64,000 bases of DNA from Azadirachta indica (taxonomy: Eukaryota > Streptophyta > Magnoliopsida > Sapindales > Meliaceae), in assembly GCA_022749755.1 (NCBI GenBank), contig CM040445.1:248001-312000 (forward strand), in the 5' to 3' direction. A program made the position numbers and the translations under genes. The notes under the pieces were generated by a model. It had not been told where the DNA came from, ran no database searches, and worked only from the letters and a program-made list of their open reading frames with translations. Of the stretch, positions 1 through 45,956 are shown in pieces (within the stretch, counting starts at the first letter, position 1; each line of letters begins with the position of its first letter).

Positions 1-1590
1 GGCCGTCCACGAAATAATATCATCACTTTCTGTTTCATAGAAGATTTGTGAAGCCTCTTTTATACTCCCACATTTTGAATACATATTGATTAAAGCACTT
101 TGTATCATAGCTGTGTGCTCCAATCCAATGGACATTACATGAGCATGGAGTTGAATCCCTTGCTCAAGAATTGCCATATTTCCACACACACTCAGCACAC
201 TAGCAAAAGCAAACTCATTTGGTCTTGGTCCTTCTCTTCTCATCAATGATAGATACTCAAAGCTTCTTCTCCACAACCTCCTTGAGAATAACCTCCAATT
301 ATAGTGCTCCATGAAATAATATCCCTCCTGCTCATCTCATGAAATACCCTTGAAGTTGAAATTAACTGTCCACATTTTGAATACATGGTCATGATGGAAT
401 TGGCCACTGACAAAGAATCCACAAGGCCTAAATGGAAAACATGGGCATGTAACTGCTTGCCCAGTTGGATTCTTGCAAGGTTGGCAGAAGCGGAGATAAC
501 TGCAGCAAAAGTATACTCATTGGGTTTCACATCTGATTCTCTCATTTTTACAAATGCTTCAAAAGCATTTTCCTCGTGACCCATTTGAACATAAGTTGTT
601 ATTGTTGTTGTCCATGAAACCACATCAGGCGCGCTCATTCTTTCAAACAAACACAAACCATAGTCTAATTTCCCACATTTGTTATACATTGTAGCAAGAG
701 AGTTAGCAACAAATGAGCTCACATCAAAACCTCTCTTTATGGTGTGAGTATGAATCTCCCTTCCACAACTCAAAGCACCTGAATCAGCACAAGCCTTTAA
801 TGCAATAGCATACGTGTATGAATCACACTGCACTTTTGATCTCCACATTTCAGAAAAGTAAACCACTCCCTCCTTATTATAACCAGAACGAACAAGGCCC
901 GTAATAATAGCAGTCCAGGATACTACATTCCTCAATGGCATTTCATCAAAAACTCTACAACCAAGCTCAATTTTTCCAAATTTGGAGTACATGTCTAAAA
1001 GCGCACTACCCACGAAAACAGAGTTCACAAAACCGGTTTTTGCTGTATATCCATGTAATGATTCTCCGTAATTAACATTCACATTGAGTGCAGAAGCTTT
1101 GAGAGCAAGGCTTAGTATAAAGGGATCCATGTTCATTCCAGGCTCAACCCACATTTTCGAAAACAATGCCAAAGCTTCAGTGGAGCCCATGACATTGACA
1201 TAACCAGATATCATAGTGGTCCACGAAATCTCGTCTCGGTAACGCATTGTATCAAACATTTTTGCGAGCATCGGATAAGTAGCCGGTTTTCACTAGTTGC
1301 TTGAGTCGAGAATTGACATCAAGCATGTTTAAAGGAATAGGTAATTCAAGTGATTGAGAAAGTTGGTCCGGTTTTGGAGGCCAAACCGGCGAATGTCGTC
1401 GTTCAGAGTAAGAGATGGCTGAGCTGCTAAACAGTCTGCTGATACGTGGCCGATTTGATAGCAGCATGTTTCTTGTCATTGTGGAACAGCCATGCACATG
1501 CACCATCCATTGCTCTCGCGCACATAACCGACACTCATTTGAGAATTTAGATTCGGATCGTAAGCCCAACACTATATAGCCCAAATACAA
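1..1590 (-). pseudogene. E-subgroup PPR protein, left-arm copy (cut by window edge, frameshifted)
   Basis: Inverted copy of the gene at 43699-45956, running off the window at base 1. The frame opens at 1590. It is broken first by a fifth T in the run 1259-1263 (the other arm has four), and again near 259-262, where one base is missing at the start of the motif containing EYLSLMRREG. Between the breaks, tandem 35-residue PPR motifs with VISWT and DMYSK signatures are clear. The second break is shared by both arms; the first is private to this arm and looks like a homopolymer error. The family binds organellar RNA. Confidence 0.85.
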
Positions 1591-2363
1591 AACGCAGTGT
1601 TTTGACGTCGGCCGTGTCCAATTCGCAATTTTCTCTTTTTCCGTTTTTTATTTTGGGTAATTGATTTTTTTTAATTTTGTGGGTTCTAAAAGTAAATTTT
1701 ATTCAGCACCTTTTCATTGTATTAAACAGTTGACATATTGTCTATACTTCAACTATATGTTATTTTGTCTGACATCTAACTATATGATATTATATAGTTG
1801 TGTTACGCATACAATTATATTATAAAATGAACGTAAATATATTTTATACACAAAGGATGATATTTATGAAAGTGACAGTATCTTACATGATGTTGCATAA
1901 CAATATGTTGCCTATGATTATTACGGTAAGAGTAACAATGTTTAGATGCATATAGAAAACAACAGAGAGAAGTTATAAAATAGAAAGAAGGAATTTGATT
2001 GGTTACACTTTGATCAGATTTTCAAGCCATTCTCTTGGAGCATTTTACAATCTGATCTTAAGCAAGCAATAAAAAAAAACCTAATTAAAAACCATCTGTT
2101 TCTGCTGACAACAAAGTTTCGAAACTCTTCCACTTTCATCCTTTCCTGACAGAGTTTTGCCTAAAGAACTCGGTTGATATATAGCGAAAACACAACAAAG
2201 ATACAGAGATTTAACATATACTTAAAAAAGTCCTAGCTACTCTCCTGGACGAGTAACGTTCATCACTAGGGGAGACAACTTCCCAAAACTTTACCTATGA
2301 CTACAATTAAACAGGTTTATAGTTATTACAGTGACATCCAATCCCGTCACACGAGATTCAGTT
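1591..2363. other. Intergenic: PPR promoter side and mannanase 3' side (left arm)
   Basis: AT-rich and without a plausible coding frame. It should hold the 5' flank of the minus-strand PPR gene and the 3' untranslated region of the mannanase. Its twin is 42927-43698. Confidence 0.6.
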
Positions 2364-4651
2364 TCAGTTTCCAATATGCCTTCCCCTGATTCCGCCCTGC
2401 CAGTGTCCCCTCCTTATGGCCCTTGCCCTCTTCCACCTCTCGACATTTCTCATTCTTGCAAAAATCTTGCGAATTTGATACAACTTGTTAGCTTGTTGAG
2501 TGATCAAATTTGCTGTTGAGGGGCTTTGGCTCAAAACTATCTCATAACCATCTCGAAAAGAGTCCATTCCTCCGGTTAGAAGTTGCCAAAACAGGCCTCC
2601 AGCTGCTGCACCTTCTCTTTTTGCTGATGAGTAAATCTTGTAGTACACAGTATTGAACATAACATCTCTCTGGTGGGTGCTGTAACCAGGATCTTTCCAT
2701 GATTTCCCGAATTCTGTGATGAGTATGGGCTTCCGTAGAATGTATTGTGCATCCTGGATGTGGGTGTTGAGCCAGTTGTTCAGGAAAGAAAGCTGATATT
2801 GATCATTTGAGCTGGATAACCTGTTCATGCAACAATATTATCTAAATAACACCCTATAATTTATTTTTGGTAATAGTTATGAAATCGTTTCAAATGTTTT
2901 ACTTGAACTCTTTTCATAAAACGAGAGTATTATAATTAGATACTATATAGATAACATTTACCATTGATCAGGATATGAATGAACTGTTGCAAAATCAATG
3001 CCAGGGATCCGGTTGTTAGCAATGAAGTCTGTCCCAATTTCAAGATTAGGATTGAGTCTCTTCCTCTGAGGTGTTGATTGTCCGTAAAATCCTTCTAAAC
3101 CAGCGTCCAGCAAGTGATTTCTGTCTATGGACTTTACGTAGGAAGCTATTTCCATTATCCAAGCCTATCATACAACCAATGAGCAATAAGTTAAGCGTGA
3201 ATCCCATGAAGACAAAAGTAAAAAACTAACAAAATCATAAAGCAGTTAGATCTAGTTGTTGAAAAGGTAAATAAAATTTTCACATTCACGAATGGGGTTT
3301 TGCTTTCATGGAGGTGGGTGGAGAAATGTAAACTCTTGATGGCTAATCTATTATGGACCAACCAAATGAAACTAAATTTAAAATGAGAATACATCAAGCT
3401 GAAACGAAGTAGACTATTAATGGATAAAAGTTGCTAGGTAATGTTAGTTCTTAAGGTCTAAACAAATTAACAAGTAACAGAAGAAGTGGAAAGATTATCG
3501 ACCTGAATGGTCCTTCCAGAGGGATCTGATGTGCATCTAGGCTCATTCATAAGCTCCCAGGCCATAATTGTTGGATCATCTTTGTAGTGAATTCCAGTAA
3601 AGCTATTATATCTATTAAGAACAGTCTGCAAAAAGCACAGACAAATTGGACTAAGCATCTTTCATGTCATGACATAAAGAAGAGGCTCAGAAACTTTATA
3701 TAATCATGTATCAACTGAAATCTTTCAGGAAAACCAATATCCAATCAGTAACTGAAATTTCATAACAGTACTATGATTTTTTTTTTCTTATAATAGAACT
3801 AAACAGCACATAAAAAGTGAAAATGTATTCATCACCAAAATAGAGCACAAATCAGGAGCTGTACGGCCTTTTCTGCTTTTCAATTAAAACTGCGATTACT
3901 ACTACCCATTAGGAATGTTTCATCCAAAACAATAGCAAGACTTAACAACAGCAAAGCAAATTAAAGATATCTTCACTCTAAGAAGGAAAAAATAAAAACT
4001 TGCCCTTATATGGTTCTTGTAGTAACCCTTAACAACAGAGTTTCTAAAGAAATCATCATCAGAAGTCAGGTACTGGCCTTGACTTCTAGCCCAGTTGACA
4101 TACTGTTTCTTCCCCCCAAAGCTTTCGTAGTTGTTGGCCAAGCTCAGTATGAGCTTGATTCCATATTTTCTTGCCTCAGCTATGACAAAATCCAATCCCT
4201 TTTAAATCATCGAACAAACAAAATATTAGAATCCATATAATCAGAATTATGAACTTCAAAAATTATATACGAATAAAGGAAATTGTTTAAAACCAAAAGG
4301 ATCAGCGTGTGAGAGATAGACCTTAAACATTTGCTCATTGTAGGAGCCAGGAGAATACTGTAAAGGTCTGTAACCACCATCACTGAAAGCCCAAGTTCTA
4401 GCAACAGTGAGGCCATGGCTTGCAGCTTCATGAAAAGCAGTTGATACTTTGGATCTCTGAGATGGATCAGAAGCTACATACATTAACCAGTAGGCATTAA
4501 ATCCATTTGCATAGTAGAGATTACCATTCAACAGAAAATGTGTTCCTCTAGTTCTGATAAAACCATCTCCTGCTTCAACATAGATGTTGGAAGATTGCTG
4601 AAGGATTAAAATGGCCAAAAAGAGAGCAAAAGACAAATGTAAGAACTTCAT
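2364..4651 (-). CDS. MAN7: Mannan endo-1,4-beta-mannosidase (GH5), left-arm copy
   Basis: Five exons on the minus strand: 4322-4651, 4004-4198, 3503-3625, 2962-3164 and 2364-2820, giving 435 aa. The frame is open throughout, as in the other arm. The enzyme hydrolyses internal beta-1,4 bonds of cell-wall mannans and is secreted: the first ~27 residues are hydrophobic and end near VEAGDG. The GH5 acid/base is E203 in MNEPRC and the nucleophile is E320 in LITEFGKS. Intron 2 starts GC (AGG|GCAAGT), not GT. The start at 4651 is preferred because the signal peptide follows directly; an in-frame ATG at 4735 would add 28 residues before it. The C-terminus carries an Arg-rich tail of about 35 residues. 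The paralogue name rests on synteny next to ERA, as in Arabidopsis At5g66460. Confidence 0.92.
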
Positions 4652-4686
4652 CCCTGTCTCACTCCTCTGAGTGGATGGAGGAATAC

Positions 4687-4705
4687 TGTTTATATATATA
4701 AAAGG
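4687..4705 (-). promoter_or_regulatory. Probable TATA box of the mannanase, left arm
   Basis: A TATATATATAAA-type run lies about 40-50 bases upstream of the chosen ATG on the minus strand. The right-arm version is 3 bases longer. Position and composition suit a TATA box with a very short leader, but no transcript start is visible. Confidence 0.45.
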
Positions 4706-6447
4706 AGATATTATAACGTTTTGAAAGGAGAGCAATTGAAGATGAGGGTTTTTAAGCAGTTGGCTGTGATCGAAGTTTGTCCGGTTATAACTGCAATAAT
4801 AATATATTAAATTATAAAAATTAACAGTGTCCCCTCAGTAACCTAAAATGGAACTATTCTTTATACTTCATTGCAGTATACATCAAGGTAAATTGGTTCT
4901 CAGAATTACAAACAAAATTCACACGGATCATCAACAATTTCATGTTCAACATCATCCTGTTGGCATGATTTAACGCATGGGAAACAAGTGGGGATCTATT
5001 AAAAAAAAGAAGAAAGAGAAGTGACGCATCAGATATTAAAATAAGATATCGGGATATGATCATTATCGCTCATTAAAAATATGGTGGGAAGACTTGATTT
5101 TATTTTAGCCGTCCCTCCAACAATGATGAAATTTGTTACAGATTTAAACTGAGTATATTAACTGACTTTAGAGTGAGTTTTGCCAATATCCAATTATTTT
5201 CTAATTAACAAAGTGAGCATTTCTACAGCAATTTTACATTTTCAAGTGTTGCAACACATAATTCAACAACCATGGGCCCTGGCTGTAGGGCATCTTCAAC
5301 CAATTCTTTAATTCTGGCCAACCGTGGATTAATACAGCAAAACTGTTTGAAAAATCTTGGCAACAGCCGTTGGATTTTAATTTTTACTTTAATATTTTGA
5401 TCCCCTGGTCTTTATCAGAAAGCCAAAAAGCTTGGCAGCCATTGGAAACTTCATGAAGGCTTGTCAATCAATTGATGTGTTTTGAGGGCGCGGCATATAA
5501 AACATAACGACTTTCATTTCTATTCTGACATCTGAACCTATTCGGATTCAGCTTCCCCACGGCACGGCATCTATAAACACATACTTCACTTGCATGTCTC
5601 ATGTCTCATGTCTCATGTCTCATGTCTCATCTGACACAACACGCGGCGTAACCCATGTGAGAAATAATATCCAATGCTGTTTTTAATTTAAATGGACCTC
5701 TTTTGCTTCTAGAATTTTCCGTTTCGACTATTTTTCATTGAATTACCTAGTGTAAACACAGTTGCATGTTCCAGCGCCAATTCTTTATCAATGTTTATGC
5801 ATCGTTTAAATATTTTTTTTCATGTCCTCGGTGTTCGTTTTCCTCTAACATATCAAATTTTTATTTCATCCAGCTTAAAGTAAACATGGTTTGATATTGA
5901 TATCGTCCTTTGTAGACTTGTTTACCCTAGAGTCCATTCGGTTTGAAAGGAAAAGTTCAAAAAGTATTGGAGAAAAAACTGGCAAGACGGGAGCTGATGG
6001 GGTCCTTCTCCGCCGACACATTAATTGGCGCGATTTGCGGATCTACTTGTCTGAAGACATGTGGCATGGGACGTCTGGTCATTTACCATGAATTCCTAAC
6101 TCACCCGGAACTTAGACTGCGGCCCGTTGGCATATATTTCTGACATGGGCGCAGACCACAACCCAAAATGGGCTTCAAGTTTTCAGGTCCAACCTTTTGT
6201 ATCCCATGTTATGCCTTGTTACAATTGAGCCCCAGGGACTGTGAATGGACGCAAATTTATCCAATATCACAACAGAAGGAGATGAACAAATCATCTTCAT
6301 GAAGATTAAAAGCAAGATCAATAAAATGAAGGTATCTATAATAATCAACAAAACTACGACCAAAATCTAGAGCTATATAATCTCTACAGGGACCTGACCA
6401 TCTTGACTTACATAGTGAGGACGGGTCAAATTTGATAAAACCTCACA
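4706..6447. other. Intergenic between mannanase and ERA (left arm)
   Basis: No credible gene; short open frames such as those at 5891-6143 lack family features. It includes the five-copy 7-bp tandem repeat at 5593-5627 and the 3' flank of ERA. Twin region: 38840-40580. Confidence 0.6.
5593..5627. repeat. 7-bp tandem repeat, 5 copies (left arm)
   Basis: CATGTCT is repeated five times head to tail. The matching place in the other arm (39661-39688) has four copies of the complement, so copy number differs between the arms. Confidence 0.9.
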
Positions 6448-9400
6448 TCATAATGCTCGAATCTGTCCCCCATAACCATAATGCTTCAAAAGTCCTTCGT
6501 CCTGCCGCCAATTCTCTTTTACTTTTACTTCAATCTGTTCCATAAAAAGAGTTAAGCTGAATATTTTCCAACCTCAGAGACAAGAAATATTCTCTGATGC
6601 AGTTGCATGAACTTAATGCATCAGCATAACTGAAGATGCTGATAATGAAAATGTACCAACTGAGTTCAAAGCCAGATAATTCATCATCAGATAAAACGAC
6701 ACAGATTATTATTATTATTGTTGTTGTTGTTGTTGTTGTTATTATCATCATCATCATCATCATCATCATCAGTTATTATTGCAATTATTACAAAAGGATT
6801 ACAGTTCAAGTTGGCACCTCAAGGTAGACTTTCTTCTGTAAGAAATCTTCAATGTCAAGTCGAGCAGCTGTTGCAAGTAGTTTTAGAGCCTTCCCTCCCT
6901 ACAAGTTTTATGAACACTCAAAAAGTCAGAGAAACCACATCAAATGCTGTGCTAGTGTCCACCTCTTAATATGTATGTGGAGATTAAATCTTGGACATGG
7001 AACTTTGATGAGCAAGTCCATGTCCTAAATGAAGCTTTGGGGCCAGGGGTGGTGGTTGAAAGACAAATAACACGTGAATTTCATCTGCAGCAATCAATAT
7101 GCTGCAGGATTATGCATGCTGATAACTTTTGTAGAACCATTATTTGCCAAATTTTAGCAGAATTGAAACAAGATCTCTGACGGGCCCAAAATATGTTCTC
7201 CTTCACATGTTAATGCCTCCTCTTGCTACCCTCATTTTTGTCCTGCCTCTTAGCAACAGCTCTACTCCCTGTACAAGCCAAGGCCCCTATTTCAACCCAT
7301 CACCATATTAGGGGCCTTGCTGACTCTAAGGTCTTCAAAACAATCATACACTGAGGAATTATGCAAAAACAACCAATTACAGGACTCACTTACTTTTCCA
7401 ATGAGTATTATCTTTTGTGTGTTTTTCTCTACAACAATCTCCACTTGTATAAAATCTTTGGCAGTTGGCCGAGTTTTGTAACTCACGACATTAACCTGCA
7501 GGATTCAGATATCAAAAAACCAAAATTGTCAAGTACACATCCCAAAAGTTTAAAAGGAATTGAAATCTATTAGTGCAAATTGATACATACCTGACATGCA
7601 TAAGGGACTTCATCACGGTATTGCATAAAGATCTTTTCTCTAATAATCTCACCTACAAAGAACCTTTCTGGGTGCTCACTAACAATATCCTGAAACTCAT
7701 AAATATGCCAAGGTAAAGGATTTACATTCAGGAAGCAGCCAATCTCTTGCAGTAACAAATATTACAGGAAATGATCAAAATGCACTCATAGATAGGCCAA
7801 GGCACCCAACCCTCAGGACTTACCAAAACTAGATCTTCCTATACCAGAAAGGGAAAGGAAGCTGAACCCATGCTGATGGATAGCCAACCCCTTAATTTGT
7901 TCCACACAGTGTACTATTATGAGCCATACCAGGCAAAATCTACCTATAACATCTGTAGCTATCCAAGAATGCCAATAGATCTAATTTGGCACTACAAAGG
8001 CAACAATTTAAACAGCTTCACAAATGGAACCCCAGGAAATGAATCCAGGTATGATTATCACTTCTTTTACATTTTTCCACTGGGAAAATCTCCAAACATG
8101 GATTTCAGACATCCATCATGTTGTCTCTAAATTGTGCAACTAATTTCAAACATTGGGTTGCGGCCATCTAAAAGGTTAAGAGTCATAGCCAAAATTGCTG
8201 TGAAAGACCAGCAATGCTCATTTCTTTTAGGAGGAAATAGAAATCACAAAGACAACAAGAAACAGGAATCTTGGTACAAGAAACAGGAATCTTGGTACAA
8301 GAAACAGGAACCTTGATTCTTAGGTTTAATCATACCTTTGGATAATAAGCTGGCCCAACAGGAAGTTTTGATAATATCCAATCCTTGACATCTTCCACTC
8401 CATGACCATATTTTGCACTCACAGGTATAACTTCGTCAACATCTGTAAATTTCTCATACCACTGCAAGGAATGTGATATCTCGTTAGAAAGCAAAGATTC
8501 AAAGAAGAAGGAAATGTAAGAAACATAAATGGAATGTTATCAGAATGGCTGGATTATCAAATTAGCAACCTCTTTTATCAATAATAATAAGAAAACACAA
8601 CTCTCTCAGCAGAAGTACTGTATTCAATTTTTTACATGCTAAAATGTAAATCAATGATGAGTTCTGACCTCAAGCTTTTTTGCAATTTCACCTGGCTTGA
8701 TCAAATCCTTCTTATTCAATACCAGCAAAATTGGCAACTTATCTCTGAGGTCTCCCACACCTTCTTCCAAAACTTTGTCAATCTACAAAAGTTGAAATGA
8801 ATTAAGAAGAAGGAAACAAAATATTGCCATAAAGTGAAATAGAAGGAAGTATACTTTTTCAGGAGCTTTGCATGCATCAACAAGAACTATAACACAGTCT
8901 GCATTAATCGCAGCACTGCGAACATTCCTCATCATCATTGAGTCCAACTTGTGCATTTTCTTCTCAATAACACCAGGAGTATCATAAAGTATCATCTGCA
9001 AGCAACACTTTAGTCAAATTAATTATTTTAAACAGTTACATAATTGTAAGAAGAGTGGAACACCTCCAGGCAGAGCAAAAGGAATGGAGATAGAGAAGAG
9101 AAGTTAAAAACTGGAGCAGCATCACTTATAAGATTGACTTGGTCTACGATTAAATGAGCTATACAATATCCATTACCGATGAACAAAGCTTAACATATTG
9201 TACTAATATTGCCATTAGTTAGAAAATTTTGATGTGATGGATGCCTGAATCTTCACATTCACCATTTGTTAAGGCAATGCATACAAGATAGCAGTGTCCT
9301 AAAAAGTTGATTCCATCTCTAGAACTATCTCTTGGTGCGAATCGGTTGTAGAGCGACCTAACCTCTGGGTTAGTTTTGTAAAGGTGTACTCCCAATACAA

Positions 9401-11745
9401 AAGTCTAGAATAACTAGTAAGGTAATATCTCTGGTAACAACAAGGAAGTGTACATTATAAGATTTCTCTCAATTGACCTTCTAAAAGTGTTGGTGGCCCC
9501 TTTCTATAGCATAAGATATTATGCCACCAATAAATTACAGACTAATAGTATCATAAAGTTAACCATTAAATCAAGGTTTATAACCAGCAAAGACAATAAA
9601 AGAATAATGATCATATTTGATTACAAAATTTAACATATATTATAACGGTGAATCAATTATGATATAAGATATTTTGAAATCCAAGTATACAAAATATCCA
9701 ACAATCTCCTTCTATTTCATACTACACAAAATAATTACTGGGTAACATTTTAGAATCCAGTATATATGTACTGATGCCTTTCAAGTTATGAATCAATCAT
9801 TGGACAACTATGAACCAACAACTAGAATCATGTATAAGAGGAACTTGGTTAAATATAAAATTTCTACGAACTAATGTCTCTTTGAGCAAGTCAAAGGACT
9901 AACTACTCATACTCAATTCTCTACAATTAACATGTTTTCTAATTTGACATTTTAACAGTTACTAATGATATTTGCATAATTCATTACATACGTAATTTAA
10001 CAAATTTGTACATCATAGTAAGACAGCAACATTGAAGCAACAACTGAAGATAATTAATGGATGCTGATCATTAATCATACAAGCATATAAAATCAAATAC
10101 AACTACCATTTGTTCATATGAGGGCTGGAATTCAGAAATATGATGCAATTTTATAATATAAGCATAAGCATAATGGCTTACCACTATGCACTACATCATA
10201 TAAATATGTTTCAAGATCATGTGCTTTTAACAGGAAAAAACAATTCAATTAATCAAATCCATTACTCTAAGTTGCACACAAGCAACATATCCAATAAATA
10301 TTCAGGCAACATAATTAATAAAAGCTTAAATGCAAACATTGAAACATACGCCATTTTGTTTCCCGCCTACCCACATTTTGTTTTTAAAACTATCATGTTT
10401 TCTACCCTATACATAACAAGACAACAAATTCAAGATCAGCATTTCTCAAATCATGTATGCATTGAGAAGAATTCAAAAAAATGCCTATGTTTGAATTTGA
10501 TGAGGATATATCCTAAACATTGTCATAAAAATTTAATATGATGCTTGAATCATAATGCTCTCAATTTGTTAGGACAATGTCTACTTTAAGTATAGATTCC
10601 ATCCCACTAGGATTACATCCTGGTGCAAATCCAGTGTATGACCATCCAATGTCCATTATTCACTGGCTTAGTTTTGTAAAGATGCACTTCAACAAAATAC
10701 TAACATCTTGTAAGTTAATATCTCAGATGACAGGTAGGGAATGTATATTGTGAGACTATTAAATCACCTTCCAAAAGTGTGTTGGTGTTTATTTTTCTAG
10801 TATAAGATAAATCTTGCCACAATTAAATTAAAAATTGACAGTATCATAAAGTCAACCACTAAACCATGGTTGGTAACCAACAAAGAGGGTCAAAAAGAAC
10901 AATGACATAATTGGGTACAATATTTAATGTATATTATAGAGGTCAATCAATTAGCTATAATGCATTTTGAAACACAAATACCATAATATCCAACATTAGT
11001 TACATTATCTAACATGACTAAAATGAAACCCATCAGAATAATAGTAGTGCTATGCAGACAGAATAACATTTTGTGCTTCCAGCCTCATTCTGTCATCTGA
11101 TAGGAATATGTCACAATAATCAAGTTTAAGGTTATTGATTGTTAACCATAATCAAACCTGATACTCTGGACCAGAACATATACCAAGAATTCGGTGCCTT
11201 GTAGTTTGAGGCTTATTTGTAACTATTGAAAGCTTTTGACCTATCATTTGGTTTGCAAGAGTACTCTTTCCCACATTCGGCTTGCCAAGTACGGCCACAT
11301 ATCCTGCAATCGAGAAGACAACTACTACATTAATAGCGAAAGGTGAGAGGGAGCATTCTTTACAAATATCAAAAGAAAAGTAACTAACCACTTTTGTGGT
11401 CAGGCTGAGAGGAGTAGCCAAGCTCTTCAATCTCGTAGTCGTCAAGCATGGCCATGTTCCTGTCTGGTTTCTCGCTGAGGGACAGAAACGACGACTCATA
11501 ATCTTCACCAGACACTTCTTCTTCTTCATCGTTATCATCTGAGTCAAGTTCTAGCTGTCTGCTCCAAAGCTCTTGCCCCCTTGTCGTCGTTCTTTTTCAC
11601 ACAATAAAAGGTTCGAGTGGTTACTGCTTCTACAAATAAAACTTCTTCTGCCTTGGAACCGAAATTGAGTTTGTCGGGACGAGATTGTAACGTAATAAGG
11701 AAAGATGCTGTGAACAGAACAGGAAATGTGAAGAGTCGGCTCCAT
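6448..11745 (-). CDS. ERA: ERA-like GTPase, chloroplastic, left-arm copy (frameshift in exon 1)
   Basis: Nine exons on the minus strand: 11389-11745, 11158-11303, 8855-8995, 8669-8782, 8336-8461, 7591-7689, 7394-7495, 6818-6898 and 6448-6534. Exon 1 has two extra C (minus-strand G) in the run 11576-11580, which shifts the frame after about 55 residues; the other arm is correct there. In return, exon 4 here is intact (VLNKKD G4 motif), whereas the other arm has a 5-base duplication. The first ~45 residues look like a transit peptide, followed by an acidic linker. ERA binds 16S-type rRNA and assists small-subunit assembly; the neighbours and plastid-type leader suggest plastid action. Confidence 0.9.
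6705..6771. repeat. ATT/GTT/ATC compound microsatellite (left arm)
   Basis: Runs of TTA, then TTG/GTT, then ATC trinucleotides lie in the last ERA intron. They generate spurious poly-Met, poly-Leu and poly-Ser frames. Twin: 38514-38582. Confidence 0.9.
8258..8316. repeat. 21-bp tandem repeat, ~3 copies (left arm)
   Basis: A 21-base unit beginning AAGAAACAGGAATC occurs nearly three times inside ERA intron 5; the last copy has a substitution and is incomplete. Twin: 36968-37027. Confidence 0.85.
9235..9703. repeat. LTR-like repeat copy 1 in ERA intron 2 (left arm)
   Basis: Diverged direct repeat of 10539-10995. The ends are TGATGGATG and ATATCCAACA, so it starts TG and ends CA in both orientations, as LTRs do. 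No primer-binding site or gag/pol frame lies between the copies, so these could be solo LTRs of one retroelement family or the remnant of a small non-autonomous element. No target-site duplication is evident. Confidence 0.55.
10539..10995. repeat. LTR-like repeat copy 2 in ERA intron 2 (left arm)
   Basis: Second copy in the same orientation, starting TGATGCTTGAATC and ending ATATCCAACA. It shares many blocks with copy 1, such as TTAGTTTTGTAAAG and GTATCATAAAGT, but has diverged. About 830 bases separate the copies. Confidence 0.55.
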
Positions 11746-16927: not shown

Positions 16928-16968
<41 letters not shown>

Positions 16969-20553: not shown

Positions 20554-20633
20554 GGCTACTTATTGGTTCAATATTGTTCTACAAGACAGATACTCTGCAA
20601 TGCAAGATAACTTGAATTTACACAGCAGCACTT

Positions 20634-20645
20634 TTATATATAAAG
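20634..20645 (-). promoter_or_regulatory. TATA box of the small basic protein gene (left arm)
   Basis: A TATATATAAAAG sequence on the minus strand, about 80-90 bases before the ATG at 20553; a good TATA match at plausible spacing. Confidence 0.55.
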
Positions 20646-25094: not shown

Positions 25095-25260
25095 AAATGA
25101 GAGAGTTGATATTATTTTTCTTTACTCTTGATTATGGTCAATTACAATTCTCGTTTGTATGTTTGTTTTTTTTTTTTTTTTTTTTTAAAACTTGTAAGCC
25201 TCCTGGTTATTACCAGCAGCTGAATTTGCTTGGGTTTTGCAAGTGATGTAAGAACAACTG

Positions 25261-25297
<37 letters not shown>

Positions 25298-28313: not shown

Positions 28314-28358
<45 letters not shown>

Positions 28359-33536: not shown

Positions 33537-36500
33537 ATGGAGCCGACTCTTCACATTTCCTGTTCTGTTCACAGCATCTTTCCTTATTACGTTACAATCT
33601 CGTCCCGACAAACTCAATTTCGGTTCCAAGGCAGAAGAAGTTTTATTTGTAGAAGCAGTAACCACTCGAACCTTTTATTGTGTGAAAAAGAACGACGACA
33701 AGGGCAAGAGCTTTGGAGCAGACAGCTAGAACTTGACTCAGATGATAACGATGAAGAAGAAGAAGTGTCTGGTGAAGATTATGAGTCGTCGTTTCTGTCC
33801 CTCAGCGAGAAACCAGACAGGAACATGGCCATGCTTGACGACTACGAGATTGAAGAGCTTGGCTACTCCTCTCAGCCTGACCACAAAAGTGGTTAGTTAC
33901 TTTTCTTTTGATATTTGTAAAGAATGCTCCCTCTCACCTTTCGCTATTAATGTAGTAGTTGTCTTCTCGATTGCAGGATATGTGGCCGTACTTGGCAAGC
34001 CGAATGTGGGAAAGAGTACTCTTGCAAACCAAATGATAGGTCAAAAGCTTTCAATAGTTACAAATAAGCCTCAAACTACAAGGCACCGAATTCTTGGTAT
34101 ATGTTCTGGTCCAGAGTATCAGGTTTGATTATGGTTAACAATCAATAACCTTAAACTTGATTATTGTGACATATTCCTATCAGATGACAGAATGAGGCTG
34201 GAAGCACAAAATGTTATTCTGTCTGCATAGCACTACTATTATTCTGATGGGTTTCATTTTAGTCATGTTAGATAATGTAACTAATGTTGGATATTATGGT
34301 ATTTGTGTTTCAAAATGCATTATAGCTAATTGATTGACCTCTATAATATACATTAAATATTGTACCCAATTATGTCATTGTTCTTTTTGACCCTCTTTGT
34401 TGGTTACCAACCATGGTTTAGTGGTTGACTTTATGATACTGTCAATTTTTAATTTAATTGTGGCAAGATTTATCTTATACTAGAAAAATAAACACCAACA
34501 CTTTTGGAAGGTGATTTAATAGTCTCACAATATACATTCCCTACCTGTCATCTGAGATATTAACTTACAAGATGTTAGTATTTTGTTGAAGTGCATCTTT
34601 ACAAAACTAAGCCAGTGAATAATGGACATTGGATGGTCATACACTGGATTTGCACCAGGATGTAATCCTAGTGGGATGGAATCTATACTTAAAGTAGACA
34701 TTGTCCTAACAAATTGAGAGCATTATGATTCAAGCATCATATTAAATTTTTATGACAATGTTTAGGATATATCCTCATCAAATTCAAACATAGGCATTTT
34801 TTTGAATTCTTCTCAATGCATACATGATTTGAGAAATGCTGATCTTGAATTTGTTGTCTTGTTATGTATAGGGTAGAAAACATGATAGTTTTAAAAACAA
34901 AATGTGGGTAGGCGGGAAACAAAATGGCGTATGTTTCAATGTTTGCATTTAAGCTTTTATTAATTATGTTGCCTGAATATTTATTGGATATGTTGCTTGT
35001 GCAACTTAGAGTAATGGATTTGATTAATTGAATTGTTTTTTCCTGTTAAAAGCACATGATCTTGAAACATATTTATATGATGTAGTGCATAGTGGTAAGC
35101 CATTATGCTTATGCTTATATTATAAAATTGCATCATATTTCTGAATTCCAGCCCTCATATGAACAAATGGTAGTTGTATTTGATTTTATATGCTTGTATG
35201 ATTAATGATCAGCATCCATTAATTATCTTCAGTTGTTGCTTCAATGTTGCTGTCTTACTATGATGTACAAATTTGTTAAATTACGTATGTAATGAATTAT
35301 GCAAATATCATTAGTAACTGTTAAAATGTCAAATTAGAAAACATGTTAATTGTAGAGAATTGAGTATGAGTAGTTAGTCCTTTGACTTGCTCAAAGAGAC
35401 ATTAGTTCGTAGAAATTTTATATTTAACCAAGTTCCTCTTATACATGATTCTAGTTGTTGGTTCATAGTTGTCCAATGATTGATTCATAACTTGAAAGGC
35501 ATCAGTACATATATACTGGATTCTAAAATGTTACCCAGTAATTATTTTGTGTAGTATGAAATAGAAGGAGATTGTTGGATATTTTGTATACTTGGATTTC
35601 AAAATATCTTATATCATAATTGATTCACCGTTATAATATATGTTAAATTTTGTAATCAAATATGATCATTATTCTTTTATTGTCTTTGCTGGTTATAAAC
35701 CTTGATTTAATGGTTAACTTTATGATACTATTAGTCTGTAATTTATTGGTGGCATAATATCTTATGCTATAGAAAGGGGCCACCAACACTTTTAGAAGGT
35801 CAATTGAGAGAAATCTTATAATGTACACTTCCTTGTTGTTACCAGAGATATTACCTTACTAGTTATTCTAGACTTTTGTATTGGGAGTACACCTTTACAA
35901 AACTAACCCAGAGGTTAGGTCGCTCTACAACCGATTCGCACCAAGAGATAGTTCTAGAGGATGGAATCAACTTTTTAGGACACTGCTATCTTGTATGCAT
36001 TGCCTTAACAAATGGTGAATGTGAAGATTCAGGCATCCATCACATCAAAATTTTCTAACTAATGGCAATATTAGTACAATATGTTAAGCTTTGTTCATCG
36101 GTAATGGATATTGTATAGCTCATTTAATCGTAGACCAAGTCAATCTTATAAGTGATGCTGCTCCAGTTTTTAACTTCTCTTCTCTATCTCCATTCCTTTT
36201 GCTCTGCCTGGAGGTGTTCCACTCTTCTTACAATTATGTAACTGTTTAAAATAATTAATTTGACTAAAGTGTTGCTTGCAGATGATACTTTATGATACTC
36301 CTGGTGTTATTGAGAAGAAAATGCACAAGTTGGACTCAATGATGATGAGGAATGTTCGCAGTGCTGCGATTAATGCAGACTGTGTTATAGTTCTTGTTGA
36401 TGCATGCAAAGCTCCTGAAAAAGTATACTTCCTTCTATTTCACTTTATGGCAATATTTTGTTTCCTTCTTCTTAATTCATTTCAACTTTTGTAGATTGAC

Positions 36501-38839
36501 AAAGTTTTGGAAGAAGGTGTGGTGTGGGAGACCTCAGAGATAAGTTGCCAATTTTGCTGGTATTGAATAAGAAGGATTTGATCAAGCCAGGTGAAATTGC
36601 AAAAAAGCTTGAGGTCAGAACTCATCATTGATTTACATTTTAGCATGTAAAAAATTGAATACAGTACTTCTGCTGAGAGAGTTGTGTTTTCTTATTATTA
36701 TTGATAAAAGAGGTTGCTAATTTGATAATCCAGCCATTCTGATAACATTCCATTTATGTTTCTTACATTTCCTTCTTCTTTGAATCTTTGCTTTCTAACG
36801 AGATATCACATTCCTTGCAGTGGTATGAGAAATTTACAGATGTTGACGAAGTTATACCTGTGAGTGCAAAATATGGTCATGGAGTGGAAGATGTCAAGGA
36901 TTGGATATTATCAAAACTTCCTGTTGGGCCAGCTTATTATCCAAAGGTATGATTAAACCTAAGAATCAAGGTTCCTGTTTCTTGTACCAAGATTCCTGTT
37001 TCTTGTACCAAGATTCCTGTTTCTTGTTGTCTTTGTGATTTCTATTTCCTCCTAAAAGAAATGAGCATTGCTGGTCTTTCACAGCAATTTTGGCTATGAC
37101 TCTTAACCTTTTAGATGGCCGCAACCCAATGTTTGAAATTAGTTGCACAATTTAGAGACAACATGATGGATGTCTGAAATCCATGTTTGGAGATTTTCCC
37201 AGTGGAAAAATGTAAAAGAAGTGATAATCATACCTGGATTCATTTCCTGGGGTTCCATTTGTGAAGCTGTTTAAATTGTTGCCTTTGTAGTGCCAAATTA
37301 GATCTATTGGCATTCTTGGATAGCTACAGATGTTATAGGTAGATTTTGCCTGGTATGGCTCATAATAGTACACTGTGTGGAACAAATTAAGGGGTTGGCT
37401 ATCCATCAGCATGGGTTCAGCTTCCTTTCCCTTTCTGGTATAGGAAGATCTAGTTTTGGTAAGTCCTGAGGGTTGGGTGCCTTGGCCTATCTATGAGTGC
37501 ATTTTGATCATTTCCTGTTATTTTTGTTACTGCAAGAGATTGGCTGCTTCCTGAATGTAAATCCTTTACCTTGGCATATTTATGAGTTTCAGGATATTGT
37601 TAGTGAGCACCCAGAAAGGTTCTTTGTAGGTGAGATTATTAGAGAAAAGATCTTTATGCAATACCGTGATGAAGTCCCTTATGCATGTCAGGTATGTATC
37701 AATTTGCACTAATAGATTTTAAATTCCTTTTAAACTTTTGGGATGTGTACTTGACAATTTTGGTTTTTTGATATCTGAATCCTGCAGGTTAATGTCGTGA
37801 GTTACAAAACTCGGCCAACTGCCAAAGATTTTATACAAGTGGAGATTGTTGTAGAGAAAAACACACAAAAGATAATACTCATTGGAAAAGTAAGTGAGTC
37901 CTGTAATTGGTTGTTTTTGCATAATTCCTCAGTGTATGATTGTTTTGAAGACCTTAGAGTCAGCAAGGCCCCTAATATGGTGATGGGTTGAAATAGGGGC
38001 CTTGGCTTGTACAGGGAGTAGAGCTGCTGTTGCTAAGAGGCAGGACAAAAATGAGGGTAGCAAGAGGAGGCATTAACATGTGAAGGAGAACATATTTTGG
38101 GCCCGTCAGAGATCTTGTTTCAATTCTGCTAAAATTTGGCAAATAATGGTTCTACAAAAGTTATCAGCATGCATAATCCTGCAGCATATTGATTGCTGCA
38201 GATGAAATTCACGTGTTATTTGTCTTTCAACCACCACCCCCTGGCCCCAAAGCTTCATTTAGGACATGGACTTGCTCATCAAAGTTCCATGTCCAAGATT
38301 TAATCTCCACATACATATTAAGAGGTGGACACTAGCACAGCATTTGATGTGGTTTCTCTGACTTTTTGAGTGTTCATAAAACTTGTAGGGAGGGAAGGCT
38401 CTAAAACTACTTGCAACAGCTGCTCGACTTGACATTGAAGATTTCTTACAGAAGAAAGTCTACCTTGAGGTGCCAACTTGAACTGTAATCCTTTTGTAAT
38501 AATTGCAATAATAACTGATGATGATGATGATGATGATGATGATAATAACAACAACAACAACAACAACAATAATAATAATAATCTGTGTCGTTTTATCTGA
38601 TGATGAATTATCTGGCTTTGAACTCAGTTGGTACATTTTCATTATCAGCATCTTCAGTTATGCTGATGCATTAAGTTCATGCAACTGCATCAGAGAATAT
38701 TTCTTGTCTCTGAGGTTGGAAAATATTCAGCTTAACTCTTTTTATGGAACAGATTGAAGTAAAAGTAAAAGAGAATTGGCGGCAGGACGAAGGACTTTTG
38801 AAGCATTATGGTTATGGGGGACAGATTCGAGCATTATGA
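33537..38839 (+). CDS. ERA: ERA-like GTPase, chloroplastic, right-arm copy (5-bp duplication in exon 4)
   Basis: Exons 33537-33891, 33977-34122, 36282-36422, 36495-36613, 36821-36946, 37593-37691, 37788-37889, 38389-38469 and 38753-38839. Corrected length is 416 aa. All splice phases fit. G-domain motifs: G1 GKPNVGKST at ~125-133, Thr of KPQTTRHR as G2, G3 DTPG at ~172-175, G4 NKKD at ~237-240 and G5 SAK at ~267-269. A C-terminal KH domain follows, ending [17 protein letters not shown]. Exon 1 is intact here. Exon 4 contains GGTGTGGTGTGGG where the left arm has GGTGTGGG, a 5-base duplication that shifts the frame before NKKD. Intron 2 is ~2.2 kb and contains two LTR-like repeats. Confidence 0.92.
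34285..34739. repeat. LTR-like repeat in ERA intron 2 (right arm, twin of 10539-10995)
   Basis: Begins TGTTGGATATTATGG and ends TTCAAGCATCA, fitting TG...CA termini. Differs from its twin by a 2-base indel (CCAACACTTTTGG versus CCAACACACTTTTGG). Confidence 0.55.
35573..36042. repeat. LTR-like repeat in ERA intron 2 (right arm, twin of 9235-9703)
   Basis: Begins TGTTGGATATTTTG and ends GGCATCCATCA, in direct orientation to 34285-34739 and diverged from it. Confidence 0.55.
36968..37027. repeat. 21-bp tandem repeat, ~3 copies (right arm)
   Basis: Complement of the left-arm repeat at 8258-8316; the same three copies are kept. Confidence 0.85.
38514..38582. repeat. Compound trinucleotide microsatellite (right arm)
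   Basis: GAT, AAC and AAT runs in the last ERA intron, twin of 6705-6771. Confidence 0.9.
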
Positions 38840-40580
38840 TGTGAGGTTTTATCAAATTTGACCCGTCCTCACTATGTAAGTCAAGATGGTCAGGTCCCTG
38901 TAGAGATTATATAGCTCTAGATTTTGGTCGTAGTTTTGTTGATTATTATAGATACCTTCATTTTATTGATCTTGCTTTTAATCTTCATGAAGATGATTTG
39001 TTCATCTCCTTCTGTTGTGATATTGGATAAATTTGCGTCCATTCACAGTCCCTGGGGCTCAATTGTAACAAGGCATAACATGGGATACAAAAGGTTGGAC
39101 CTGAAAACTTGAAGCCCATTTTGGGTTGTGGTCTGCGCCCATGTCAGAAATATATGCCAACGGGCCGCAGTCTAAGTTCCGGGTGAGTTAGGAATTCATG
39201 GTAAATGACCAGACGTCCCATGCCACATGTCTTCAGACAAGTAGATCCGCAAATCGCGCCAATTAATGTGTCGGCGGAGAAGGACCCCATCAGCTCCCGT
39301 CTTGCCAGTTTTTTCTCCAATACTTTTTGAACTTTTCCTTTCAAACCGAATGGACTCTAGGGTAAACAAGTCTACAAAGGACGATATCAATATCAAACCA
39401 TGTTTACTTTAAGCTGGATGAAATAAAAATTTGATATGTTAGAGGAAAACGAACACCGAGGACATGAAAAAAAATATTTAAACGATGCATAAACATTGAT
39501 AAAGAATTGGCGCTGGAACATGCAACTGTGTTTACACTAGGTAATTCAATGAAAAATAGTCGAAACGGAAAATTCTAGAAGCAAAAGAGGTCCATTTAAA
39601 TTAAAAACAGCATTGGATATTATTTCTCACATGGGTTACGCCGCGTGTTGTGTCAGATTGAGACATGAGACATGAGACATGAGACATGAGACATGCAAGT
39701 GAAGTATGTGTTTATAGATGCCGTGCCGTGGGGAAGCTGAATCCGAATAGGTTCAGATGTCAGAATAGAAATGAAAGTCGTTATGTTTTATATGCCGCGC
39801 CCTCAAAACACATCAATTGATTGACAAGCCTTCATGAAGTTTCCAATGGCTGCCAAGCTTTTTGGCTTTCTGATAAAGACCAGGGGATCAAAATATTAAA
39901 GTAAAAATTAAAATCCAACGGCTGTTGCCAAGATTTTTCAAACAGTTTTGCTGTATTAATCCACGGTTGGCCAGAATTAAAGAATTGGTTGAAGATGCCC
40001 TACAGCCAGGGCCCATGGTTGTTGAATTATGTGTTGCAACACTTGAAAATGTAAAATTGCTGTAGAAATGCTCACTTTGTTAATTAGAAAATAATTGGAT
40101 ATTGGCAAAACTCACTCTAAAGTCAGTTAATATACTCAGTTTAAATCTGTAACAAATTTCATCATTGTTGGAGGGACGGCTAAAATAAAATCAAGTCTTC
40201 CCACCATATTTTTAATGAGCGATAATGATCATATCCCGATATCTTATTTTAATATCTGATGCGTCACTTCTCTTTCTTCTTTTTTTTAATAGATCCCCAC
40301 TTGTTTCCCATGCGTTAAATCATGCCAACAGGATGATGTTGAACATGAAATTGTTGATGATCCGTGTGAATTTTGTTTGTAATTCTGAGAACCAATTTAC
40401 CTTGATGTATACTGCAATGAAGTATAAAGAATAGTTCCATTTTAGGTTACTGAGGGGACACTGTTAATTTTTATAATTTAATATATTATTATTGCAGTTA
40501 TAACCGGACAAACTTCGATCACAGCCAACTGCTTAAAAACCCTCATCTTCAATTGCTCTCCTTTCAAAACGTTATAATAT
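38840..40580. other. Intergenic between ERA and mannanase (right arm)
   Basis: Twin of the region after 4706. It includes a 7-bp tandem repeat with four copies of AGACATG at 39661-39688 and an adjacent one-base difference. No gene is seen. Confidence 0.6.
39661..39688. repeat. 7-bp tandem repeat, 4 copies (right arm)
   Basis: AGACATG four times; the left arm has five complementary copies at 5593-5627. Confidence 0.9.
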
Positions 40581-40585
40581 CTCCT

Positions 40586-40603
40586 TTTATATATTATATA
40601 AAC
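40586..40603 (+). promoter_or_regulatory. Probable TATA box of the mannanase, right arm
   Basis: TTTATATATTATATAAAC about 40-50 bases before the ATG; 3 bases longer than the left-arm site. Confidence 0.45.
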
Positions 40604-40639
40604 AGTATTCCTCCATCCACTCAGAGGAGTGAGACAGGG

Positions 40640-42926
40640 ATGAAGTTCTTACATTTGTCTTTTGCTCTCTTTTTGGCCATTTTAATCCTTCAGCAATCTT
40701 CCAACATCTATGTTGAAGCAGGAGATGGTTTTATCAGAACTAGAGGAACACATTTTCTGTTGAATGGTAATCTCTACTATGCAAATGGATTTAATGCCTA
40801 CTGGTTAATGTATGTAGCTTCTGATCCATCTCAGAGATCCAAAGTATCAACTGCTTTTCATGAAGCTGCAAGCCATGGCCTCACTGTTGCTAGAACTTGG
40901 GCTTTCAGTGATGGTGGTTACAGACCTTTACAGTATTCTCCTGGCTCCTACAATGAGCAAATGTTTAAGGTCTATCTCTCACACGCTGATCCTTTTGGTT
41001 TTAAACAATTTCCTTTATTCGTATAATCTTTGAAGTTCATAATTCTGATTATATGGATTCTAATATTTTGTTTGTTCGATGATTTAAAAGGGATTGGATT
41101 TTGTCATAGCTGAGGCAAGAAAATATGGAATCAAGCTCATACTGAGCTTGGCCAACAACTACGAAAGCTTTGGGGGGAAGAAACAGTATGTCAACTGGGC
41201 TAGAAGTCAAGGCCAGTACCTGACTTCTGATGATGATTTCTTTAGAAACTCTGTTGTTAAGGGTTACTACAAGAACCATATAAGGGCAAGTTTTTATTTT
41301 TTCCTTCTTAGAGTGAAGATATCTTTAATTTGCTTTGCTGTTGTTAAGTCTTGCTATTGTTTTGGATGAAACATTCCTAATGGGTAGTAGTAATCGCAGT
41401 TTTAATTGAAAAGCAGAAAAGGCCGTACAGCTCCTGATTTGTGCTCTATTTTGGTGATGAATACATTTTCACTTTTTATGTGCTGTTTAGTTCTATTATA
41501 AGAAAAAAAAAATCATAGTACTGTTATGAAATTTTCAGTTACTGATTGGATATTGGTTTTCCTGAAAGATTTCAGTTGATACATGATTATATAAAGTTTC
41601 TGAGCCTCTTCTTTATGTCATGACATGAAAGATGCTTAGTCCAATTTGTCTGTGCTTTTTGCAGACTGTTCTTAATAGATATAATAGCTTTACTGGAATT
41701 CACTACAAAGATGATCCAACAATTATGGCCTGGGAGCTTATGAATGAGCCTAGATGCACATCAGATCCCTCTGGAAGGACCATTCAGGTCGATAATCTTT
41801 CCACTTCTTCTGTTACTTGTTAATTTGTTTAGACCTTAAGAACTAACATTACCTAGCAACTTTTATCCATTAATAGTCTACTTCGTTTCAGCTTGATGTA
41901 TTCTCATTTTAAATTTAGTTTCATTTGGTTGGTCCATAATAGATTAGCCATCAAGAGTTTACATTTCTCCACCCACCTCCATGAAAGCAAAACCCCATTC
42001 GTGAATGTGAAAATTTTATTTACCTTTTCAACAACTAGATCTAACTGCTTTATGATTTTGTTAGTTTTTTACTTTTGTCTTCATGGGATTCACGCTTAAC
42101 TTATTGCTCATTGGTTGTATGATAGGCTTGGATAATGGAAATAGCTTCCTACGTAAAGTCCATAGACAGAAATCACTTGCTGGACGCTGGTTTAGAAGGA
42201 TTTTACGGACAATCAACACCTCAGAGGAAGAGACTCAATCCTAATCTTGAAATTGGGACAGACTTCATTGCTAACAACCGGATCCCTGGCATTGATTTTG
42301 CAACAGTTCATTCATATCCTGATCAATGGTAAATGTTATCTATATAGTATCTAATTATAATACTCTCGTTTTATGAAAAGAGTTCAAGTAAAACATTTGA
42401 AACGATTTCATAACTATTACCAAAAATAAATTATAGGGTGTTATTTAGATAATATTGTTGCATGAACAGGTTATCCAGCTCAAATGATCAATATCAGCTT
42501 TCTTTCCTGAACAACTGGCTCAACACCCACATCCAGGATGCACAATACATTCTACGGAAGCCCATACTCATCACAGAATTCGGGAAATCATGGAAAGATC
42601 CTGGTTACAGCACCCACCAGAGAGATGTTATGTTCAATACTGTGTACTACAAGATTTACTCATCAGCAAAAAGAGAAGGTGCAGCAGCTGGAGGCCTGTT
42701 TTGGCAACTTCTAACCGGAGGAATGGACTCTTTTCGAGATGGTTATGAGATAGTTTTGAGCCAAAGCCCCTCAACAGCAAATTTGATCACTCAACAAGCT
42801 AACAAGTTGTATCAAATTCGCAAGATTTTTGCAAGAATGAGAAATGTCGAGAGGTGGAAGAGGGCAAGGGCCATAAGGAGGGGACACTGGCAGGGCGGAA
42901 TCAGGGGAAGGCATATTGGAAACTGA
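40640..42926 (+). CDS. MAN7: Mannan endo-1,4-beta-mannosidase (GH5), right-arm copy
   Basis: Exons 40640-40969, 41091-41285, 41665-41787, 42126-42328 and 42470-42926 (435 aa), with all phases consistent and no frameshift. Same protein organisation as the left copy: signal peptide, GH5 barrel, E203 and E320 as catalytic pair. The conserved substrate-side residues WELMNEP and HSYPDQW are present. Exon 2 ends at AGG|GCAAGT; using the GT four bases downstream would introduce a stop in exon 3, so a GC-AG intron is the only reading that preserves HIR-TVLNRYN. The gene is directly followed by the second PPR gene and preceded by ERA, all on the plus strand. Confidence 0.93.
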
Positions 42927-43698
42927 AACTGAATCTCGTGTGACGGGATTGGATGTCACTGTAATAACTATAAACCTGTTTAATTGTAGTCATAGGTAAA
43001 GTTTTGGGAAGTTGTCTCCCCTAGTGATGAACGTTACTCGTCCAGGAGAGTAGCTAGGACTTTTTTAAGTATATGTTAAATCTCTGTATCTTTGTTGTGT
43101 TTTCGCTATATATCAACCGAGTTCTTTAGGCAAAACTCTGTCAGGAAAGGATGAAAGTGGAAGAGTTTCGAAACTTTGTTGTCAGCAGAAACAGATGGTT
43201 TTTAATTAGGTTTTTTTTTATTGCTTGCTTAAGATCAGATTGTAAAATGCTCCAAGAGAATGGCTTGAAAATCTGATCAAAGTGTAACCAATCAAATTCC
43301 TTCTTTCTATTTTATAACTTCTCTCTGTTGTTTTCTATATGCATCTAAACATTGTTACTCTTACCGTAATAATCATAGGCAACATATTGTTATGCAACAT
43401 CATGTAAGATACTGTCACTTTCATAAATATCATCCTTTGTGTATAAAATATATTTACGTTCATTTTATAATATAATTGTATGCGTAACACAACTATATAA
43501 TATCATATAGTTAGATGTCAGACAAAATAACATATAGTTGAAGTATAGACAATATGTCAACTGTTTAATACAATGAAAAGGTGCTGAATAAAATTTACTT
43601 TTAGAACCCACAAAATTAAAAAAATCAATTACCCAAAATAAAAAACGGAAAAAGAGAAAATTGCGAATTGGACACGGCCGACGTCAAAACACTGCGTT
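42927..43698. other. Intergenic between mannanase and second PPR gene (right arm)
   Basis: Twin of 1591-2363; 3' untranslated sequence of the mannanase and AT-rich promoter sequence. No gene is seen. Confidence 0.6.
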
Positions 43699-45956
43699 TT
43701 GTATTTGGGCTATATAGTGTTGGGCTTACGATCCGAATCTAAATTCTCAAATGAGTGTCGGTTATGTGCGCGAGAGCAATGGATGGTGCATGTGCATGGC
43801 TGTTCCACAATGACAAGAAACATGCTGCTATCAAATAGGCCACGTATCAGCAGACTGTTTAGCAGCTCAGCCATCTCTTACTCTGAACGACGACATTCGC
43901 CGGTTTGGCCTCCAAAACCGGACCAACTTTCTCAATCACTTGAATTACCTATTCCTTTAAACATGCTTGATGTCAATTCTCGACTCAAGCAACTAGTGAA
44001 AACCGGCTACTTATCCGATGCTCGCAAAATGTTTGATACAATGCGTTACCGAGACGAGATTTCGTGGACCACTATGATATCTGGTTATGTCAATGTCATG
44101 GGCTCCACTGAAGCTTTGGCATTGTTTTCGAAAATGTGGGTTGAGCCTGGAATGAACATGGATCCCTTTATACTAAGCCTTGCTCTCAAAGCTTCTGCAC
44201 TCAATGTGAATGTTAATTACGGAGAATCATTACATGGATATACAGCAAAAACCGGTTTTGTGAACTCTGTTTTCGTGGGTAGTGCGCTTTTAGACATGTA
44301 CTCCAAATTTGGAAAAATTGAGCTTGGTTGTAGAGTTTTTGATGAAATGCCATTGAGGAATGTAGTATCCTGGACTGCTATTATTACGGGCCTTGTTCGT
44401 TCTGGTTATAATAAGGAGGGAGTGGTTTACTTTTCTGAAATGTGGAGATCAAAAGTGCAGTGTGATTCATACACGTATGCTATTGCATTAAAGGCTTGTG
44501 CTGATTCAGGTGCTTTGAGTTGTGGAAGGGAGATTCATACTCACACCATAAAGAGAGGTTTTGATGTGAGCTCATTTGTTGCTAACTCTCTTGCTACAAT
44601 GTATAACAAATGTGGGAAATTAGACTATGGTTTGTGTTTGTTTGAAAGAATGAGCGCGCCTGATGTGGTTTCATGGACAACAACAATAACAACTTATGTT
44701 CAAATGGGTCACGAGGAAAATGCTTTTGAAGCATTTGTAAAAATGAGAGAATCAGATGTGAAACCCAATGAGTATACTTTTGCTGCAGTTATCTCCGCTT
44801 CTGCCAACCTTGCAAGAATCCAACTGGGCAAGCAGTTACATGCCCATGTTTTCCATTTAGGCCTTGTGGATTCTTTGTCAGTGGCCAATTCCATCATGAC
44901 CATGTATTCAAAATGTGGACAGTTAATTTCAACTTCAAGGGTATTTCATGAGATGAGCAGGAGGGATATTATTTCATGGAGCACTATAATTGGAGGTTAT
45001 TCTCAAGGAGGTTGTGGAGAAGAAGAAGCTTTGAGTATCTATCATTGATGAGAAGAGAAGGACCAAGACCAAATGAGTTTGCTTTTGCTAGTGTGCTGAG
45101 TGTGTGTGGAAATATGGCAATTCTTGAGCAAGGGATTCAACTCCATGCTCATGTAATGTCCATTGGATTGGAGCACACAGCTATGATACAAAGTGCTTTA
45201 ATCAATATGTATTCAAAATGTGGGAGTATAAAAGAGGCTTCACAAATCTTCTATGAAACAGAAAGTGATGATATTATTTCGTGGACGGCCATGATTAATG
45301 GCTATGCTGAACATGGCTACAGCCAAGAAGCCATTGATTTGTTTGAGAAGCTTCCGAGGGTTGGTTTGAGACCAGACTCTGTGACCTTCATTGGTGTTCT
45401 TACTGCTTGTAGCCATGCGGGGCTTGTTGATCTTGGTTTCCATTACTTCAATTTGATGAATAATGAATACCGGATTAATCCTTCTAAAGAACACTATGGT
45501 TGCATGATTGATCTCCTGTGCCGAGCTGGACGACTTAGTGATGCTGAGAACATGATCAAAAGAATGCCTCATCAACAGGATGATGTTGTTTGGTCAACTC
45601 TGCTTCGAGCCTGTAGGGTCCATGGTGACGTGGATTGTGGAAGACGCACTGCAGAGAAGATTTTTGAATTAGAACCAAATTGTGCAGGGACTCACATTAC
45701 CCTTGCTAACATTTACGCTGGTAAAGGGAGATGGAGAGAAGCAGCAGCAGTTAGGAAGATGATGAGATCAAAGGGAGTGACTAAGGAACCTGGATGGTCT
45801 TGGATTAAAATAAAAGATCAGGTATCTGCATTTGTTTCTGGTGACCGCTTTCATCCACAGAGTGAAGATATATACCATGTACTAGATTTACTAGCTTCAA
45901 GGGCAGAAGTTGCTATCCATGAATTGGATTCTCTCGCACATGATGTTGAATATTAG
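43699..45956 (+). CDS. E-subgroup PPR protein (At3g47840-like), one internal frameshift
   Basis: Intronless. The first frame, 43699-45048, encodes 449 aa of tandem PPR motifs. One base is missing near 45030-45032 (AGAAGCTTTGAG, where an extra T would restore the frame), and the rest of the protein continues in another frame to 45956, with DIISWTAMINGYAEHG, CMIDLLCRAGRLSDAE and an E-type end KDQVSAFVSGDRFHP. Corrected length is ~750 aa. The same break is in the left arm, so it is either a real mutation of this allele or an error inherited by both arms. Later in-frame ATGs at 43783 and 43810 are alternative starts. Such proteins bind organelle RNA; no DYW deaminase domain is present. A GAA codon is duplicated at ~45021-45027 relative to the left arm. 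The part beyond 45291 is single-copy. Confidence 0.88.

Follow-up and report, generated by a model that had tools for sequence, protein, structure and literature searches.

A Palindromic Contig at the Start of C6 in a Neem Assembly as a Probable Fold-Back Copy of a C8 Locus

Introduction

Palindromic PacBio reads arise from missed or missing SMRTbell adapters, as set out in the available text on Pacasus (PMC6218980). In an unamplified control described there, detectable palindromes made up 0.5% of the reads, a fraction said to mix false positives with adapter cases. According to the portion of the Breakinator paper at hand (PMC12870357), more than 11 bp between the segments is typically found in fewer than half of the foldback reads, and almost no foldbacks occurred in three PacBio samples, which were run on Revio, Vega and Sequel II and not on RS II. 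As portrayed in the available text of these two sources, fold-back reads consist of opposite-strand segments of one locus that are separated by almost nothing and whose turn is close to the midpoint and spans less than 200 bp. The palindrome described here shares all of these characteristics. Unlike the raw reads treated in those papers, it is a 58.6-kb contig in a scaffolded assembly.

Two further systems offer a comparison. False assembly duplications of the heterotype and homotype kinds (PMC9516828) are extra, gap-bounded copies of a locus that are redundant with the main copy and carry small errors, all of which applies to the present contig. It differs from them in that the extra copy is itself palindromic, so that the locus is present three times. 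Scaffold gaps between the copies mark false duplications in that work, for pairs lying on one scaffold; here, 100-N gaps stand on both sides of the palindromic contig, the main copy belongs to a different scaffold (C8) and no gap separates the arms. In mammalian sex-chromosome palindromes, to judge by the available text of PMC8981503 and PMC6790999, the arms are likewise more than 99% identical and gene-bearing. In contrast to these, the neem contig has neither a unique flank nor sequence connecting it to the chromosome, and the locus also exists elsewhere in the same assembly as one uninterrupted copy. A literature search for large plant palindromes, judged by titles, returned no comparable autosomal plant case.

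For neem, Du et al. reported in 2022 an assembly of 281 Mb with 14 chromosomes and 70 scaffolds, for which the available text names PacBio RS II, a 20-kb library, Canu, RACON, Pilon and ALLHiC (PMC9069239). The assembly analyzed here, which comprises 280.8 Mb in 21 pieces, probably originates from that project. The window, i.e., the whole stretch of DNA under study, covers C6:248001-312000 and is 64,000 nt long.

Extent and Geometry of the Palindrome

When window positions 1-45290 are aligned with their own reverse complement, the identity is 99.49%, with 36 mismatches and 88 gap openings, in agreement with the scattered small changes that had been given as the only differences between the arms. 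The initial annotation had described a near-perfect inverted repeat with arms of at least 22.6 kb. This repeat is present in the letters and is larger than claimed: with the neighboring stretches included, the palindrome is exactly one contig, C6:240474-299048, of 58,575 bp, with 100-N gaps at both borders. Beside the loop, the left arm measures 30,157 bp and the right arm 28,414 bp, the left being longer by about 1.75 kb. The self-alignment of C6 spans 242242-299048. It had been rightly noticed that the left arm is unfinished at base 1 of the window; it goes on to the first base past the left-hand gap (Table 1). Of the extent from 1 to 45291 assigned to the repeat, the mirror symmetry stands, but the end point does not, as 45291 merely mirrors base 1 and the right arm reaches farther. 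The near absence of a spacer also holds, the arms being separated by a loop of four nucleotides.

Table 1. Coordinates of the features in and around the palindromic contig and of the second copies found for the C6 probes.
Feature	Position	Strand	Remarks
Left arm	window 1..22630, plus 7,527 bp further left to C6:240474	-	Reverse complement of C8:14726693 onward; from self-alignment, contig bounds and C8 match
Right arm	window 22635..51048	+	Copy of C8:14726693-14755224; last base abuts the gap
Loop GCTT, 4 nt	window 22631..22634		Native C8:14726689-14726692, zero foreign bases
Perfect stem, 245 bp on each side of the loop	window 22386..22879		Exact pairing
100-N scaffold gap closing the palindrome contig	window 51049..51148 (C6:299049-299148)		Partner gap C6:240374-240473, left of the window
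Next scaffold piece	window 51149..64000	+	99-100% copy of C13:18.83-18.85 Mb at the probes (window 51149-53600; C6:320000-322000)
3' part of a PPR gene, two head-to-head copies cut at the axis	window 21954..23319		Uncut 549-aa open frame at C8:14725729-14727375; PPR repeats on either side of the cut
At3g47840-like PPR gene	window 43642..45956	+	Overlapping 468- and 334-aa frames; 770-aa single open frame at C8:14747818-14750127
C6 probe 60001			Second copy at C1:4.52 Mb
C6 probe 190001			Second copy at C10:10.78 Mb
C6 probe 193700			Second copy at C13:15.41 Mb
C6 probe 238001			Second copy at C13:15.37 Mb
C6 probe 299149			Second copy at C13:18.83 Mb
C6 probe 320000			Second copy at C13:18.85 Mb
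C6 probe 450001			Second copy at C13:19.18 Mb
C6 probe 800001			Second copy at C6:6.12 Mb

Two properties by which fold-back reads are recognized were applied to the contig rather than to a read. The second segment of such a read maps to the other strand, no more than 200 bp from the first, and the two arms of the contig map to opposite strands of C8 and turn there at 14726689 and 14726693, 4 nt apart. The turn falls no more than 10% from the midpoint, and the axis of the palindrome, at C6:270632, is located about 51.5% along the contig.

An Uninterrupted Copy of the Locus on C8

In a comparison with the whole assembly, both arms match a single locus, C8:14726689-14756991, at about 99.5%. The left arm (C6:240474-269661) corresponds to C8:14756991-14727822 and the right arm (C6:271622-299048) to C8:14727822-14755224, while the central 2 kb of the contig extend the match to 14726689-14726693. 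The match extends from the very first to the very last base of the contig and covers it except for scattered small differences. Therefore, no stretch of it is specific to C6. The C8 copy itself is unbroken, with no N in C8:14.70-14.80 Mb. The 3.6 kb past the axis are found at full length on C8 only, among the places found, with shorter and weaker matches on C10, C1, C13 and C6.

Since all four bases of the loop belong to C8, nothing foreign lies at the turn. A check of the junction for signs of breakage-fusion or template switching revealed neither an inverted repeat at the turn nor inserted bases. Within 150 bp of the turn on C8, the search for inverted repeats of at least 8 bp yielded one 8-bp pair only, which does not span it. 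Junctions formed by breakage-fusion or template switching do not need a short inverted repeat or inserted bases in every event.

These observations bear on the proposal of a genuine palindrome, in which breakage-fusion or template switching, either in the sequenced tree or in its lineage, would have very recently duplicated the C8 locus and placed the palindromic copy close to the end of C6. A biological palindrome would have arms joined to unique chromosomal sequence, whereas the whole contig falls within the copied C8 locus, lacks a C6-specific stretch and stops exactly at both gaps; moreover, the sole inverted repeat nearby is off the turn. A hairpin-type turn with a native 4-nt loop would also fit the repair of a hairpin-capped break, and the assembly does put the contig on C6, on such linking evidence as its authors had. 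On balance, we give a genuine insertion of this kind very little credence, and the same applies to its concrete form, a real plant palindrome of about 57 kb with one hairpin turn at the C8 locus, moved to the end of C6, whose arms would differ by scattered changes because of its very recent age.

Gene Content of the Arms

The genes of the locus occur twice in head-to-head orientation, and one PPR gene is truncated at the axis. The initial annotation had counted six such genes. The head-to-head duplication is evident, but among the eight open reading frame pieces of the arms Pfam backs only two PPR genes and one MMR_HSR1 GTPase; the scan gave no match for five of these eight pieces, or for six of ten when all scanned pieces of the window are taken. 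For one PPR gene of the window, the closest protein comes from Melia azedarach (91%).

At the axis, the 549-aa open frame on C8 spans the turn point, and the arms carry just its end. Pfam places PPR repeats both in the 320 residues past the turn and in the whole frame, which identifies the C8 stretch as the missing half of the cut gene. It had been predicted that, for an artefact, other assemblies would run past the axis with this missing half. The sequence does continue in this way, albeit on C8 of the same assembly and not in another one. Reading frames are disrupted in the arms: of the PPR frame adjacent to the axis, the left arm retains an open copy and the right arm a broken one, and a one-base difference common to both arms interrupts the 770-aa PPR frame of C8, which has one further break in the left arm.

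Each arm also holds an inverted pair of repeats of about 310 bp, 88-89% alike (window 18111-18416 and 19259-19571; 25706-26016 and 26865-27172), possibly members of an old mobile-element family.

Differences among the Three Copies

The left arm, the right arm and the C8 copy were aligned three ways, and their differences were counted as events. Both arms depart from C8 in the same manner at 33 events (22 indels and 11 substitutions). Private differences number 25 in the left arm (18 indels and 7 substitutions) and 24 in the right arm (16 indels and 8 substitutions), and all three sequences differ at another 11 events. Among the private indels, insertions and deletions stand at 14:4 in the left arm and 11:5 in the right arm. 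The substitutions common to both arms concern 12 bases in about 28.5 kb (about 0.04%, the 11 all-differ events being left out). At C8:14727661, corresponding to the vicinity of 21.7 and 23.6 kb in the window, both arms are without most of a C8 stretch of about 160 bp, with break points that differ between the arms.

As read from the alignment, the common differences suggest one shared source for both arms, and the private ones, near-equal in number and rich in indels, look like leftover sequencing error. Indel-rich, frame-breaking differences of this type argue further against a real palindrome.

The same counts can be held against the possibility that the assembler joined two haplotypes of the C8 locus head to head. 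Such a join predicts one C8-like arm and one distant arm, in contrast to the balanced private differences and the larger common set. The 11 events at which all three sequences differ would be in keeping with it, as would the retention of redundant copies of several loci in this assembly, some of which may be alternate haplotypes. Joining them at one point of the locus with a turn of 4 nt, however, would itself seem to need a bridging fold-back read. We rate a haplotype join as highly improbable. The initial annotation had named a fold-back read or two head-to-head haplotypes together as the leading explanation. The former is favored by the gap-bounded contig without unique flank, the 4-nt turn and the continuation of C8 past it, whereas the latter is at odds with the pattern of common and private differences.

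In the presumed source project, the available text gives a heterozygosity of 0.896% (PMC9069239). Compared with this value, the shared substitutions of about 0.04% leave room for doubt that the other haplotype is the source of all the redundancy, and the extra copies may represent under-collapsed sequence instead of alleles.

Redundant Pieces at the Start of C6

Ten C6 probes outside the palindrome were searched against the whole assembly. A second full-length copy at 99-100% was found for eight of them (Table 1), that is, for each of the eight probes within the first 0.8 Mb that gave an answer. The probe at C6:1000001 was uninformative, without a match even to itself, and the search with the probe at C6:1,500,001 across the whole assembly yielded no second full-length copy. 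The piece C6:193626-240373, preceded by a gap at 193526-193625, is collinear with C13 at both probed ends. At the two piece ends that were checked (C6:240373 and 299149), C13 runs on beyond the end of the C6 piece; the copies there thus stop at gaps in the assembly, as is usual for redundant contigs. Overall, C6:1-800000, the window included, seems to consist of redundant contigs strung together.

That the adjoining pieces are redundant copies of other loci is a further point against a real palindrome. The recent breakage-fusion or template-switch duplication originally offered as an alternative has no positive support, the contig being made of C8 sequence only, bounded by gaps and set among redundant neighbors. 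A real plant feature is likewise unsupported, as the arms copy one C8 locus and the gap-bounded contig holds no C6-specific sequence.

Two local features were observed in this context. In the next scaffold piece, the two copies of an inverted repeat at window 60619-62230, each about 430 bp long and 79% alike, are separated by about 760 bp. On C13, two copies spaced by about 10.6 kb (C13:18849970-18851967 and C13:18860618-18862609) form a local duplication that is 99-100% identical to C6:320000-322000.

Origin of the Palindromic Contig

We consider it very likely that the palindrome is a fold-back long-read artefact, assembled as a redundant contig of the C8 locus and wrongly placed at the beginning of C6 during scaffolding. 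A duplex fragment of the locus would have been read along one strand, with a turn at the fragment end without a recognized adapter, and the other strand would then have been read back. The assembler would have retained this palindromic read as a separate contig, perhaps padded with further reads of the locus. Residual errors would have persisted in each arm, plausibly since short reads have no unique mapping position when three copies are present. Finally, scaffolding, probably by Hi-C, would have positioned this contig on C6 among further redundant ones.

Several points weigh against a fold-back origin. The arms, at 28-30 kb, are longer than the PacBio insert of nominally 20 kb in the probable source project, and thus a single read alone may be insufficient for the whole contig. 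The near absence of foldbacks from the three PacBio samples of PMC12870357 is a further point, although these newer data are not of the RS II type. The differing break points of the loss of about 160 bp near the axis would be unexpected from one error-free molecule. Given that no adapter remnant lies at the turn, a missing adapter, and not an overlooked one, has to be supposed. In addition, the assignment to the project of Du et al., and with it the sequencing and assembly methods, is itself a probable one.

Implications for the Neem Assembly

For gene counts and the dating of duplications in this assembly, the immediate consequence is that three copies per gene are present at a locus where one is expected. 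In the probable source paper (PMC9069239), the Methods, as far as available, describe no step removing redundant contigs, and the terms purge, haplotig, haplotype and redundan- are absent from the main text. A literature search on redundancy in the neem assembly, judged by titles, found no later discussion. In its section on genome duplication analysis, the available text of the same paper attributes a peak in Ks near 0.01 to a segmental duplication dated to about 1.5 million years ago. If PMC9069239 is indeed the source, redundant contigs would add to this peak at Ks of about 0.01, and the published "recent segmental duplication" of neem deserves a recheck. The lasting interest of the locus lies in the redundant sequence with which C6 begins and in its possible effect on the recent duplication reported for neem.
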